From positions 1-64,000 of the forward strand of contig NZ_JAFWFN010000073.1 of the NCBI RefSeq assembly GCF_017515565.1: DNA of 64,000 nt, in the 5' to 3' direction. This document shows positions 473-6,624 of this stretch, in pieces. Within the stretch, counting starts at the first letter, position 1, and each line of letters begins with the position of its first letter. The notes beneath the pieces are model-generated. The model saw only the letters and a list, made by a program, of their open reading frames with translations, ran no database searches and was not told the origin of the DNA. The DNA is from Halomonas sp. (GTDB lineage Bacteria > Pseudomonadota > Gammaproteobacteria > Pseudomonadales > Halomonadaceae). The translations under genes and the position numbers were made by a program.

Positions 473-1765
473 TTACTGGCGCTTAATCGCTTTTATTCCA
501 GGGTACGTAACCTGCCCCTCAAGCTCAGCTTCAATCACCAGCAAGCGGTTATACTTGGCCACTCGGTCGGAACGGCAAAGCGAGCCGGTTTTAATTTGCC
601 CGGCACAGGTGCCCACTGCCAGGTCGGCAATGGTGGTGTCTTCGGTTTCCCCAGAGCGATGTGAAATCACGGCGGTAAAACCAGCCTCCTGCGCCATGCG
701 AATGGCATCCAGCGTTTCACTCAGCGAGCCAATCTGGTTGAATTTGATCAAGATCGAATTGCCGATTTGCTCATCAATACCGTGCTGGAGCAGCTTGGTG
801 TTAGTCACGAACAGATCATCACCCACTAACTGAACACGATCGCCCAGCTTATCCGTCAGTGCTTTCCAAGCGGGCCAGTCAGACTCGTCCATCCCGTCCT
901 CAATAGAGACAATGGGGTAGTCATCGCATAGGCGAGCAAGATAGTCGATGAAACCAGCGGCATCGTACGACTTTCCTTCCCCTGCCAGCACGTACTGGCC
1001 ATCTTTGTAGAATTCGCTAGAAGCGCAGTCCAGCGCCAGGGTCACATCGCGCCCCAGGGTGTAGCCAGCGTCTTCTACCGCCTGCTTGATGACTGCCAGA
1101 GCCTCGGCGTTGGACGCAAGGTTAGGGGCAAAGCCGCCTTCGTCGCCCACCGAGGTGGAAAAACCGCGAGCAGAAAGCACGTGCTTCAAGGTGTGGAAGA
1201 TCTCCGCCCCCATACGCAGCCCTTCACGGAAACTCGTCGCCCCCACCGGCTGCACCATGAATTCCTGAATATCCACATTATTGTCGGCATGTTCGCCGCC
1301 ATTCAAGATATTCATCATCGGCACAGGCATCATGAACTGCCCAGGCTGACCATAAAGCTCCGCGATATGCGCATAGAGCGGTAGTTGCTTACCTTTAGCG
1401 GCGGCCTTGGCGGCGGCCAGCGAGACCGCTAGGATCGCGTTAGCGCCCAGTGTCGCTTTATTAGCCGTGCCATCCAGCGCCACCATGGCGTTATCTAGGC
1501 TGCGCTGATCGCCAGCATCTGCGCCTAGCAAGCAATCACGAATGGGGCCGTTAATCGCATCGACGGCGTTAAGCACGCCCTTGCCCAAGTAGCGCGCCTT
1601 ATCGCCGTCGCGCAACTCCAGCGCCTCACCTGAACCGGTAGACGCGCCGCTAGGGGCGAAGGCCTCGCCGACGATGCCATTTTCCAGGCTCACCCGCGCC
1701 ATGACGGTGGGGTTACCACGAGAATCCAATACTTCCAGTGCTGATACGTTAACAATGTTGAGCAT
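473..1765 (-). CDS. eno: Enolase (phosphopyruvate hydratase)
   Basis: 430 residues, full length for bacterial enolase. It dehydrates 2-phosphoglycerate to phosphoenolpyruvate. Visible active-site residues match the family: catalytic Glu209 in GDEGG, Lys341 in KFNQIGS, Lys392 in IKTGS, and Mg ligands Asp246, Glu289 and Asp316; the SHRSGETED loop is at 369-377. The gene is not next to pyrG, the common gammaproteobacterial setting, but is the last gene of the minus-strand glyoxylate/glycerate run, behind a GntR regulator and pyruvate kinase. GckA upstream makes 2-phosphoglycerate, exactly its substrate. It could be a second, pathway-dedicated enolase or the only one in the genome; the window cannot decide. 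Start chosen at the ATG giving the usual [15 protein letters not shown]-terminus, with a modest AAGG upstream. Confidence 0.97.
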
Positions 1766-1892
1766 TTCGTGCCTTACTTGTTGTTATTTCATTAAATACA
1801 GTGAGTTATTAACGCGTAGCGTCAATAAGCCTAACGTCAAACCTGGAGAGTCGTTAATCATAGGTCGCTAAAAAGTGGCGACGAGGTAGGGG

Positions 1893-2660
1893 TTAAGCCT
1901 GCGCTAATTTGCCACCCAAAATAGCCTTTAAGTCGGTCTCTGCCCCTCTTGGGGAAAGATCCAACAGAGCTTCTAAGCTGTGCAAGTGGTCGTGCACGCA
2001 CTGCCTGGCGCCTTCGGCATCACCGTTGGCCAAATGCACCATTAGCGTGGCATGGTCGCCTTCCAAATAGCACGAGGCCAACGTTGGCCGCTTATATAAA
2101 GCGATCACGATAGACGTGCGTAAAATCAGGTCGGTCAGCATGGTACCGAGAATGCGATTGGAAGCATGCTCGGCAAGCAGATGGTGAATCGTCAGCGAGT
2201 GCTCTATGCGCGCTGGCTCGTCTTTTCTGGCATAGGCCTGCTTTTCATCTTCCACTTGCGCGTTCAGTGTCGCCAAGGTGTCGGTGCCAAGCTTCCCAGC
2301 CAGCAGGGCCACTATCTCACCCTCGATTAACCGACGCGCTGAAAACGTCTCCCGCGTCTCTTCGACAGTGGGCGCACGCACGCGCGCAACTTGATTAGGG
2401 CGTTGATTGATGACGTGCTCTGCCGCCAGCCGTGTGAGCGCCTTGCGCACTACCGAGCGGCTAACGCCGAACACTTCGCCCAGGGTGATTTCTGGCAATT
2501 TAGTATTCGGCGGCAGTCGCTGCATTAGTACCGCGTTACGGATATGCTCAACGATCGTTTGATCGTTATACCCACCTCGTTTGGAAGTGTTCAAAGGTTG
2601 TTTGTGCCAGCCGAGGCTCATGTTGCCTATCTCCAGGTGATCCTCATTCAACGTTCGCAT
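1893..2660 (-). CDS. GntR-family regulator with FCD domain
   Basis: 255 residues from the ATG at 2660, preceded by GAGGT at good spacing; a GTG five codons upstream is the alternative start. An N-terminal winged helix-turn-helix lies around residues 35-95, with a recognition region like EVFGVSRSVVRKALTRL. It is followed by an all-helical FCD effector domain with conserved Arg/Glu positions in SARRLIEGEIVALLAG. Such proteins usually sense small carboxylates. It lies 40 bases after pyk and 127 bases before eno in the same orientation, so it is probably co-transcribed with the glyoxylate-to-pyruvate genes and may sense one of their intermediates. It is related in architecture to the second GntR at 13059-13802 but is clearly a different protein. 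The ligand is unknown. Confidence 0.85.
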   Translation of the reverse strand: MRTLNEDHLEIGNMSLGWHKQPLNTSKRGGYNDQTIVEHIRNAVLMQRLPPNTKLPEITLGEVFGVSRSVVRKALTRLAAEHVINQRPNQVARVRAPTVEETRETFSARRLIEGEIVALLAGKLGTDTLATLNAQVEDEKQAYARKDEPARIEHSLTIHHLLAEHASNRILGTMLTDLILRTSIVIALYKRPTLASCYLEGDHATLMVHLANGDAEGARQCVHDHLHSLEALLDLSPRGAETDLKAILGGKLAQA

Positions 2661-2715
2661 TGTTACCTCGGCCACTATACCAGCACACTGTTTTAGCTTC
2701 CTAAAAACGCGTTTC

Positions 2716-5561: not shown

Positions 5562-5610
5562 CGGCAGACTTCTCAGGCAAGAGCCAGGGCAAAGAAGAAA
5601 AATAAGGGGG

Positions 5611-5657
5611 AAAAAGCCGGTGGCAGCAAAATGGCAAAACGGGGGAACTGCCACCGG
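5611..5657 (-). terminator. Hairpin between glxR and gckA, terminator or attenuator
   Basis: Perfect 10-bp arms CCGGTGGCAG (5617-5626) and CTGCCACCGG (5648-5657) around a 21-base loop. Read on the minus strand the hairpin is followed by CTTTTT. It would lower read-through from glxR into gckA rather than isolate the genes. Confidence 0.55.
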
Positions 5658-5739
5658 GTAAAAACCAATGTCTCACATGCAATCACAGCGGCGGGCCATG
5701 AACCAAGGCCCACCATTACTCAATAACGCCGATTCAGAA

Positions 5740-6624
5740 TTACTCGCCCACCTCGTGATCTGCTAATTTTTCCAGCGCACGTAGAATGCCCGCGTGATCC
5801 CAATCAGCACCACCGTTAGCAGCACACGCTTGGAATAGCTGCTGCGCATTGGCGGTACCTGGCAGAGAAAGGTTCAGGCTACGAGCGCCTTCCAGTGCTA
5901 GGTTAAGATCTTTTTGATGAAGGCGAATGCGGAAGCCCGGATCAAAGGTACGCTTAATCATGCGTTCGCCATGCACATCGAGAATCTTCGACTGGGCAAG
6001 GCCACCCAGCAGCGATTCGCGCACTTTGACGACATCCGCACCCGCCTTAGAGGCGAACAGCAACCCTTCGGCGACGGCTTCAATGGTCAGTGCAACAACG
6101 ATCTGGTTGGCGACTTTACAGGTCTGGCCTGCACCGTGACCGCCAATGTGGGTAATGGTCTTGCCGACGACTTCAAGCAGCGGTGTCGCGCGCTCGAAAC
6201 CTTTATCGGTCGCGCCAACCATAATGGTGAGCGCGGCATTGATAGCCCCACCTTCACCACCCGACACCGGGGCATCCACATACTCACCGCCAGCGTCGGT
6301 AATGCGCTTGGCAAACGCCTGGGTCTGCATCGGCGCAATGGAGCTCATGTCGATCACCAGGGTGCCTGGCTTGAGACCTTCAATAACGCCGTCTTCACCG
6401 AACAGCACGGTTTCCACGTCCGAGGTGTCTGGCACCATGGTGATAATAACGTCAGCGGCTTGGGCAACCTCTTTCGGGCTGGCTACTTCTTGCATACCTT
6501 TTTCGGCAAGCTCGGCATCCAATGTGCCGCGCTTTACGGTCACCAAGGAGTGGCCTGCGTCGAGCAGGTGGCCTGCCATTGGGCGACCCATAATGCCTAA
6601 ACCAATAAAACCTATTTTGCTCAT
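5740..6624 (-). CDS. glxR: 2-hydroxy-3-oxopropionate (tartronate semialdehyde) reductase
   Basis: 294 residues from the ATG with GGAGAG just upstream; a 21-codon upstream extension is unlikely. It reduces tartronate semialdehyde to D-glycerate with NAD(P)H. The N-terminal Rossmann fold shows GFIGLGIMGRPMAGHL (residues 5-20). The substrate signature DAPVSGGEGGA lies near residue 120 and the catalytic lysine is in CKVANQ near residue 170. These are features of the beta-hydroxyacid dehydrogenase family. The substrate is inferred from context: Gcl makes tartronate semialdehyde, Hyi interconverts it with hydroxypyruvate, and GckA phosphorylates the product. 3-hydroxyisobutyrate dehydrogenase is the main alternative by sequence but does not fit the neighbours. 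Confidence 0.93.
   Translation of the reverse strand: MSKIGFIGLGIMGRPMAGHLLDAGHSLVTVKRGTLDAELAEKGMQEVASPKEVAQAADVIITMVPDTSDVETVLFGEDGVIEGLKPGTLVIDMSSIAPMQTQAFAKRITDAGGEYVDAPVSGGEGGAINAALTIMVGATDKGFERATPLLEVVGKTITHIGGHGAGQTCKVANQIVVALTIEAVAEGLLFASKAGADVVKVRESLLGGLAQSKILDVHGERMIKRTFDPGFRIRLHQKDLNLALEGARSLNLSLPGTANAQQLFQACAANGGADWDHAGILRALEKLADHEVGE

Follow-up and report, generated by a model that had tools for sequence, protein, structure and literature searches.

A run of seven genes from Halomonas sp. is described here, in which an operon predicted to convert glyoxylate to pyruvate carries a second enolase gene at its end. The run lies at the beginning of a 64,000-nucleotide stretch of DNA, called the window in what follows (positions 1 to 64,000 of contig NZ_JAFWFN010000073.1, assembly GCF_017515565.1; C5:1-64000 in our numbering). 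The assembly comprises 3.76 Mb in 86 contigs, is 97.6% complete and is listed below as G000. On the minus strand the genes read gcl-hyi-glxR-gckA-pyk-gntR2-eno, from 9413 to 473. The explanation that we regard as likely is a gcl operon that has received an enolase gene from a sister species, by which the capacity of the exit from 2-phosphoglycerate to pyruvate would rise in step with the operon. The part from gcl to pyk is the known Pseudomonas-type gcl operon, with gcl, hyi, glxR, a class II glycerate kinase gene and pyk contiguous on one strand, and the novelty is confined to the enolase. This textbook housekeeping enzyme is present as a single copy in most of the genomes sampled, and the finding is of interest mainly because its addition recurs. 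The occurrences described below are best read as the repeated recruitment of a dedicated exit from 2-phosphoglycerate to pyruvate.

Two enolases and two pyruvate kinases

A genome-wide profile search returned two Enolase_C matches and two PK matches, all above the cut-off, and both eno and both pyk genes are intact. The central eno (C46:76880-78166) follows immediately after pyrG and kdsA and shares 86% identity with the operon copy; between the operon pyk and the second one, on C49, the identity is 79%. A preliminary description of the window had proposed paralogous isozymes, had predicted a second eno beside pyrG and had named the genome search in advance as a test. Both second genes were found, the eno at the predicted place, and the possibility that the window holds the only eno and pyk of the genome is ruled out. 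The same description had placed glxR, gckA, pyk, a GntR regulator and eno in one minus-strand run; all of them are there, together with the ATGA overlap of gckA with pyk (4188-4191), and the run extends further to include hyi and gcl. As a separate observation, the second pyk is divergent to the gene of an OHCU decarboxylase (uraD; L006:5597-7835), and the other pyruvate kinase thus also adjoins a purine catabolism gene.

A full-length match to TIGR01060 together with the active-site motifs identifies the operon gene product as an enolase, with predicted catalysis between 2-phosphoglycerate and phosphoenolpyruvate (PEP). The nine active-site motifs checked, under the labels that we presume for them, are all identical to those of the central copy, and the protein aligns end to end with solved enolases. 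Among three close carriers of the arrangement (G000, G181 and G122), the ratio of non-synonymous to synonymous substitution rates (dN/dS) of the operon eno is 0.046-0.050; for the central eno it is 0.021 (G000-G181), 0.017 (G000-G122) and 0.061 (G176-G206). These values indicate that the operon enolase is under purifying selection, looser than that on the central copies of G000-G181 and G000-G122. The synonymous divergence (dS) between G000 and G181 agrees for the two genes (0.31 operon, 0.30 central), which suggests that the operon eno has probably been retained since these genomes split; between G000 and G122 it is 0.67 for the operon gene and 0.93 for the central one. Four positions that are invariant in 55 central rows differ in all three close carriers (R46G, G299A, I325L and R328H). 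Codon bias, expressed as the effective number of codons (Nc), is 46.5 for the operon eno and 41.2 for the central eno, a weak hint that the operon copy may be expressed at a lower level.

Insertion site

The corresponding empty site is present in relatives. The operon ends gckA-pyk-gntR2 in G182 and G169 and gckA-gntR2 in G145, and in all three a GC-rich hairpin and then a convergent aceF follow directly after gntR2. In the carriers, eno is placed between gntR2 and that hairpin, which points to an addition of eno ahead of the terminal hairpin of the run. The comparison also bears on the pyruvate dehydrogenase tail, which had been thought to extend the metabolic theme of the run. The aceF gene is convergent to eno, is separated from it by a strong hairpin and occupies the same place in relatives with or without the extra eno; it lies neither on the strand nor in the transcription unit of the module, and is therefore a neighbour and not a member. 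The proposal of a dedicated lower-glycolysis module loses its pyruvate dehydrogenase part, and keeps the support of the isozymes, of an intact and selected operon enolase and of the repeated placement of eno and pyk with a glycerate kinase.

Recurrence of the arrangement

The distribution of the arrangement was followed in a genus set of 82 genomes and in samples of 151 genomes from the family, 293 from the order and 125 from the phylum. Two intact enolases are found in 7 of the 82 genus genomes. In all seven the extra copy adjoins pyk or is one gene (gntR2) away from it, and in all seven it belongs to an operon with a glycerate kinase gene, which in G161 is a fragment at a contig start. This count omits G155, G170 and G199, where two pieces of one enolase are present, and G178, G183 and G188 gave no enolase match at the E limit used. 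The gckA gene occurs in 18 genus genomes; pyk adjoins it in eight of them, gntR2 lies directly behind it in the remaining ten, and eno follows in four (G000, G181, G122 and G165). A homologue of gntR2 with at least 66% identity is present in 24 of the 82 genomes including the window's own, the other 23 ranging from 66 to 98%. The gcl operons of G143 (L104), G197 (L105) and G135 (L184) have kept gcl-hyi-glxR, pyk and gntR2 but have no gckA, and in G206 (L097) only pyk-gntR2 is left behind ureide genes.

In the family sample, a second enolase was found in 6 of 151 genomes, and four of these are in modules (G000, G122, G063 and G064). The second enolases of G050 and G113 are distant (52-53% identical) and lie outside such modules, as judged from open reading frames (ORFs) read by eye; that of G050 adjoins an ORF that by eye resembles a pyrophosphatase. 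In the order sample, gckA matches were found in 48 of 293 genomes, at 49 places. Among the 48 loci besides the window, some of them cut by contig ends and G064 not being one of them, pyk is near in 16, gcl in 15 and eno in none. Thus, pyk in a gcl operon is common and already known, and eno there is a rare accessory. The phylum sample yielded a second enolase in 6 of 125 genomes, with a module setting only for the window's own.

Enolase also stands beside pyk in operons of different chemistry. In G063, G177 and G179 the genes for tartrate dehydrogenase, a class I glycerate kinase, enolase and pyruvate kinase follow in identical order, and G161 has the same order with its first genes lost at a contig start. 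The dehydrogenase passes TIGR02089 and the kinase passes TIGR00045 in G063 and G179; a TAXI-type TRAP transporter lies between in G179 and, read by eye, in G063. The G064 operon holds tartrate dehydrogenase, transporter genes (by eye of the tripartite tricarboxylate type), glxR, gckA, pyk and eno, with 2 bases between pyk and eno; its dehydrogenase, a cut piece, scored 419.9 against a cut-off of 470.4. The glycerate kinase next to eno and pyk in the tartrate operons of the Halomonadaceae belongs to one or the other of two unrelated classes. The enolase has a shortened C-terminus in G161, G177 and G179 and in G063, and about 4.6 kb behind the G063 enolase there is a fragment of a second one (L039:14697-15140; 70-78% identical). 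Tartrate dehydrogenase was found at 19 places in 17 of the 151 family genomes, and the places of G063 and G064 have both pyk and eno.

Plasmids provided further cases. The surroundings of 12 out of 332 plasmid records with an enolase were opened; they were hand-picked from the best 60, hence non-random, and one was unannotated. Glycerate kinase, pyk and eno occur together in two of them, and pyk is near eno in other settings in two more. A Cupriavidus pinatubonensis plasmid has pyk-eno beside a divergent glycerate kinase gene and a LysR gene, and DNA of the Cupriavidus EM10 plasmid, one of the 12, matches pyk-eno though no pyk is annotated. A Paracoccus pantotrophus plasmid carries tartrate dehydrogenase-glycerate kinase-pyk-eno, in which the eno stretch matches enolase DNA from other Paracoccus records at 90-92% identity; in P. 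yeei the same genes occur without eno, leaving an empty site. Extra enolases were also seen in different settings. The Pseudomonas aeruginosa plasmid NZ_CP140112.1 (253418-266713) carries glpK, a DeoR/GlpR regulator, glpD, pyk, eno, tpiA, an NADP-dependent GAPDH and gpmI, apparently a plasmid-borne route from glycerol to pyruvate. In Azospirillum plasmids (L177, L179 and L196) the enolase lies beside an enoyl-CoA hydratase/phosphate acetyltransferase and acetate kinase, two of the three also having a formate/nitrite transporter and pgk-gap.

Origin of the operon enolase

Enolase trees of 70 and 40 sequences unite the operon enolases of G000, G181 and G122 in a single clade (100/100). This clade groups in turn with the G165 operon enolase and with the central enolases of G176 and G206 (100/94 and 100/97). 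The approximately unbiased (AU) test rejected duplication of the carriers' own central eno as the source (p 0.0024), the clade lying apart from those copies, and it also rejected a single origin of all Halomonadaceae module enolases (p 0.00025) or of the genus ones alone (p 0.0092); the groups were partly chosen after the tree had been seen, which weakens these p-values and counts against our reading. For the operon enolase, transfer from a sister species of the genus is the best reading. In G063 the module enolase resembles the central enolase of the same genome at 98% but has the shortened C-terminus of the G161/G177/G179 type, and gene conversion could mimic the separate-origin result in this case. 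A single clade of the G165 and G000/G181/G122 operon enolases was not rejected by the enolase tree (p 0.27). A tree of pyk and gntR2 rejects a single clade of the four carriers (p 5.6e-6), since G182 and G169, which have the empty site, branch among them, and the pattern may reflect loss, transfer or two insertions.

Regulators

Two GntR-family regulator genes are associated with the run. The operon-resident gntR2, which also sits in operons without eno, encodes a different regulator from gntR1, which lies among the upstream purine genes. By sequence similarity, gntR1 is the better candidate for a repressor of the type of GclR, known from the gcl operon of Pseudomonas putida: its homologues are found at 39-42% identity in all eight searched genomes of one family (f3), presumably the Pseudomonadaceae. 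A third GntR of the window genome (on C61) is also 40% identical to gntR1, and the match alone is therefore not decisive for GclR identity.

Proposed function and alternatives

The run would encode every step from glyoxylate to pyruvate, through Gcl, Hyi/GlxR, GckA (to 2-phosphoglycerate), Eno (to PEP) and Pyk (to pyruvate). The kinase has DUF4147 and MOFRL domains and homology to the solved putative glycerate kinase 2b8n; its matches to the two NCBIfam equivalogs for glycerate 2-kinase fall short of the cut-offs (218.5/550 and 203.8/670). By analogy with characterised class II enzymes, whose product in Thermoproteus tenax, Methylobacterium and Hyphomicrobium is 2-phosphoglycerate as described in the relevant passages of PMC2063504, GckA may make the same compound. 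Since a class II kinase makes 2-phosphoglycerate, phosphoglycerate mutase would be bypassed, and only enolase and pyruvate kinase would be left before pyruvate. When purines or ureides release large amounts of glyoxylate, an extra enolase might then raise exit capacity in parallel with the operon, and the central copies could stay set for gluconeogenesis and Entner-Doudoroff flux. We infer a shared transcript, its regulation by gntR1 and/or gntR2, and a benefit in flux.

Several observations weigh against this reading. Because the enolase reaction is close to equilibrium, its direction cannot be set by a second copy alone. Most gckA operons have no eno (14 of 18 in the genus and all 48 further loci of the order sample), which makes it accessory, although several of the 14 eno-less loci, including that of G177, reach a contig end just past gntR2, the enolases detected in these genomes being located elsewhere. 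Five of the six second enolases of the phylum sample are not in such modules in a tblastn search with the module proteins, two of the five lying within ~2.3 kb of a contig start. At the other 17 tartrate dehydrogenase places of the family sample, pyk or eno is near in none and a class I kinase in one. The tartrate kinases of G063, G177 and G179 are of class I, and the argument from 2-phosphoglycerate is not secured there, because class I kinases make 2- or 3-phosphoglycerate according to the passages available from PMC2063504. Finally, gntR2 and eno are 127 bases apart in the window (30 in G165), and eno could have its own promoter.

It is unlikely that the enolase is a passive xenologue that landed in a tolerated spot before the terminator and was kept as a spare, for dosage or as a salt or temperature isozyme, with no tie to glyoxylate. 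Such a gene would have come from outside its own central lineage, as this one did, and the eno-less majority of gckA operons, the 127-base gap and the second enolases of G050 and G113 outside such operons agree with it; but random landing would not place all seven intact second enolases of the genus beside pyk in glycerate kinase operons, nor produce the arrangement in another Halomonadaceae genus and in other classes. Still less probable is a separate unit of gntR2 and eno, in which gntR2 would sense a metabolite of lower glycolysis and control eno apart from gcl-pyk. The separation of pyk from eno by gntR2, the 127-128-base leader before eno kept in G000, G181 and G122 and the greater likeness of gntR1 to GclR would fit such a unit. 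Against it, genomes that lack the extra eno also have gntR2 at this position, so that gntR2 did not come with eno, and a simple pattern scan, which missed the hairpin at 390-427, listed no promoter-like (sigma-70-like) or terminator-like site in the gap. Having missed that hairpin, the scan provides weak evidence by its silence; over the whole run it gave 2 promoter-like sites against 5.0 expected and 10 terminator-like sites against 11.0 expected. That an ordinary gcl operon merely adjoins an unrelated central enolase gene can practically be discarded, since the central eno lies elsewhere, beside pyrG-kdsA, and the operon eno precedes the hairpin at which the run of the relatives stops, even if gcl-hyi-glxR-ttuD-pykF is, as described in part in PMC11166783, an operon already known.

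The addition of a sister-species enolase to a gcl operon may belong to something wider. We put forward, tentatively and with somewhat more doubt than confidence, that enolase and pyruvate kinase form a recurrently assembled exit cassette for 2-phosphoglycerate: operons of different chemistry (glyoxylate, tartrate and perhaps acid-sugar), whose glycerate kinase may belong to one or the other of two unrelated classes, would gain pyk and, at the same time or later, a locally derived enolase, resulting in a private lower glycolysis controlled apart from the central one. The repeated drawing of enolase into catabolic operons that meet glycolysis at phosphoglycerate indicates how cells may build such a private pathway. 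It also marks enolase as a possible bottleneck in the assimilation of glyoxylate, ethylene glycol and tartrate, the known P. putida operon ending at pykF. The empty-site relatives provide a natural system to ask why a near-equilibrium enzyme is worth duplicating.

Features of the run and its surroundings

The urate and ureide genes upstream of gcl are expected to deliver glyoxylate through purine catabolism. The product of allA is a ureidoglycolate lyase and that of hiuH a HIU hydrolase, the names allE and puuE are our reading of cupin and deacetylase domains in their context, and a divergent permease gene of the xanthine/uracil type lies beyond. Elsewhere in the window, a 715-aa protein (23602-25749), read by eye, combines a methyltransferase with an EgtB/OvoA-like part; we take it to resemble an OvoA-type enzyme.

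Table 1. Position and supporting evidence of the operon genes and adjacent elements in the window
Feature	Position	Strand	Evidence
aceF tail (2-oxoacid dehydrogenase acyltransferase), cut by contig end	3..347	+	convergent to eno
Bidirectional terminator-like hairpin between eno and aceF, 17 bp stem	390..427	.	-29.4 kcal/mol, z -7.3
enoOp (operon enolase), 430 aa	473..1765	-	TIGR01060, 650.5 bits vs cut-off 300
gntR2-eno gap, 127 bases	1766..1892	-	fold z -1.0, not unusual
gntR2, GntR-family regulator with FCD domain, operon-resident	1893..2675 (or internal start)	-	domain matches
pykOp (operon pyruvate kinase)	2716..4191	-	TIGR01064, 513.9 vs 306.4
gckA/ttuD, class II (MOFRL) glycerate kinase	4188..~5561	-	Pfam DUF4147 + MOFRL above cut-off
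glxR, tartronate semialdehyde reductase	5740..6624	-	TIGR01505, 383.8 vs 340.75
hyi, hydroxypyruvate isomerase	6735..7511	-	profile/domain matches
gcl, glyoxylate carboligase	7626..9413	-	profile/domain matches
Urate/ureide genes: allA, allE-like cupin, IclR, puuE-like deacetylase, gntR1 (GclR-like), urate oxidase, hiuH	9747..15616	-	domain matches

Comparison with known systems

Among the open-access literature matches listed, subscription papers and preprints being outside this scope, none described an enolase as part of a gcl or tartrate operon. The closest known system is the P. putida gcl operon, given as gcl-hyi-glxR-ttuD-pykF with the GntR repressor GclR in the sections available from PMC11166783 and PMC13357446. 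The order gcl-hyi-glxR-gckA/ttuD-pyk is common to both. GclR, which has a link to xanthine metabolism and is encoded 12 kb upstream of the gcl genes (PMC13357446, in part), has its counterpart in the GclR-like gntR1 upstream among the window's purine genes. The P. putida operon as described there has no enolase and no gntR after pyk, whereas the window run adds gntR2 and eno. A class II glycerate kinase gene next to a pyruvate kinase gene is also described, in the accessible part of PMC2063504, for Pseudomonas, Methylobacterium extorquens and Agrobacterium vitis. The A. vitis ttu operon with ttuD likewise combines the two enzymes, leading from 2-phosphoglycerate to pyruvate, but its substrate is tartrate and not glyoxylate, and an enolase gene is not mentioned in the description of it in that part.

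The same route from glyoxylate to pyruvate, via Gcl, GlxR, Gck, Eno and Pyk, is used by an anaerobic dichloroacetate degrader; in the portion of PMC8092247 concerned, the locus tag of its enolase is distant, and the enolase showed no significant change, unlike most of the others. In the serine cycle of methylotrophs, glycerate kinase and enolase act on the same route (PMC3615186 and PMC5023235, in part). By the locus tags given there for Methylosinus and Methyloversatilis, eno is not beside the glycerate kinase genes, and there is neither a pyruvate exit nor gcl; in Methyloversatilis, 12 tags separate eno (tag 460302) from mtkA-mtkB-ppc1-mcl, which is in part a precedent for an enolase near a cluster that uses 2-phosphoglycerate. 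The P. pantotrophus plasmid cluster likewise has eno behind pyk, with a class II-like glycerate kinase that is 45% identical to the window gckA product; it differs in that its enolase is alphaproteobacterial, with 64% identity to the central one of the window genome, that its substrate is tartrate, and that gcl, hyi and glxR are absent from the stretch.

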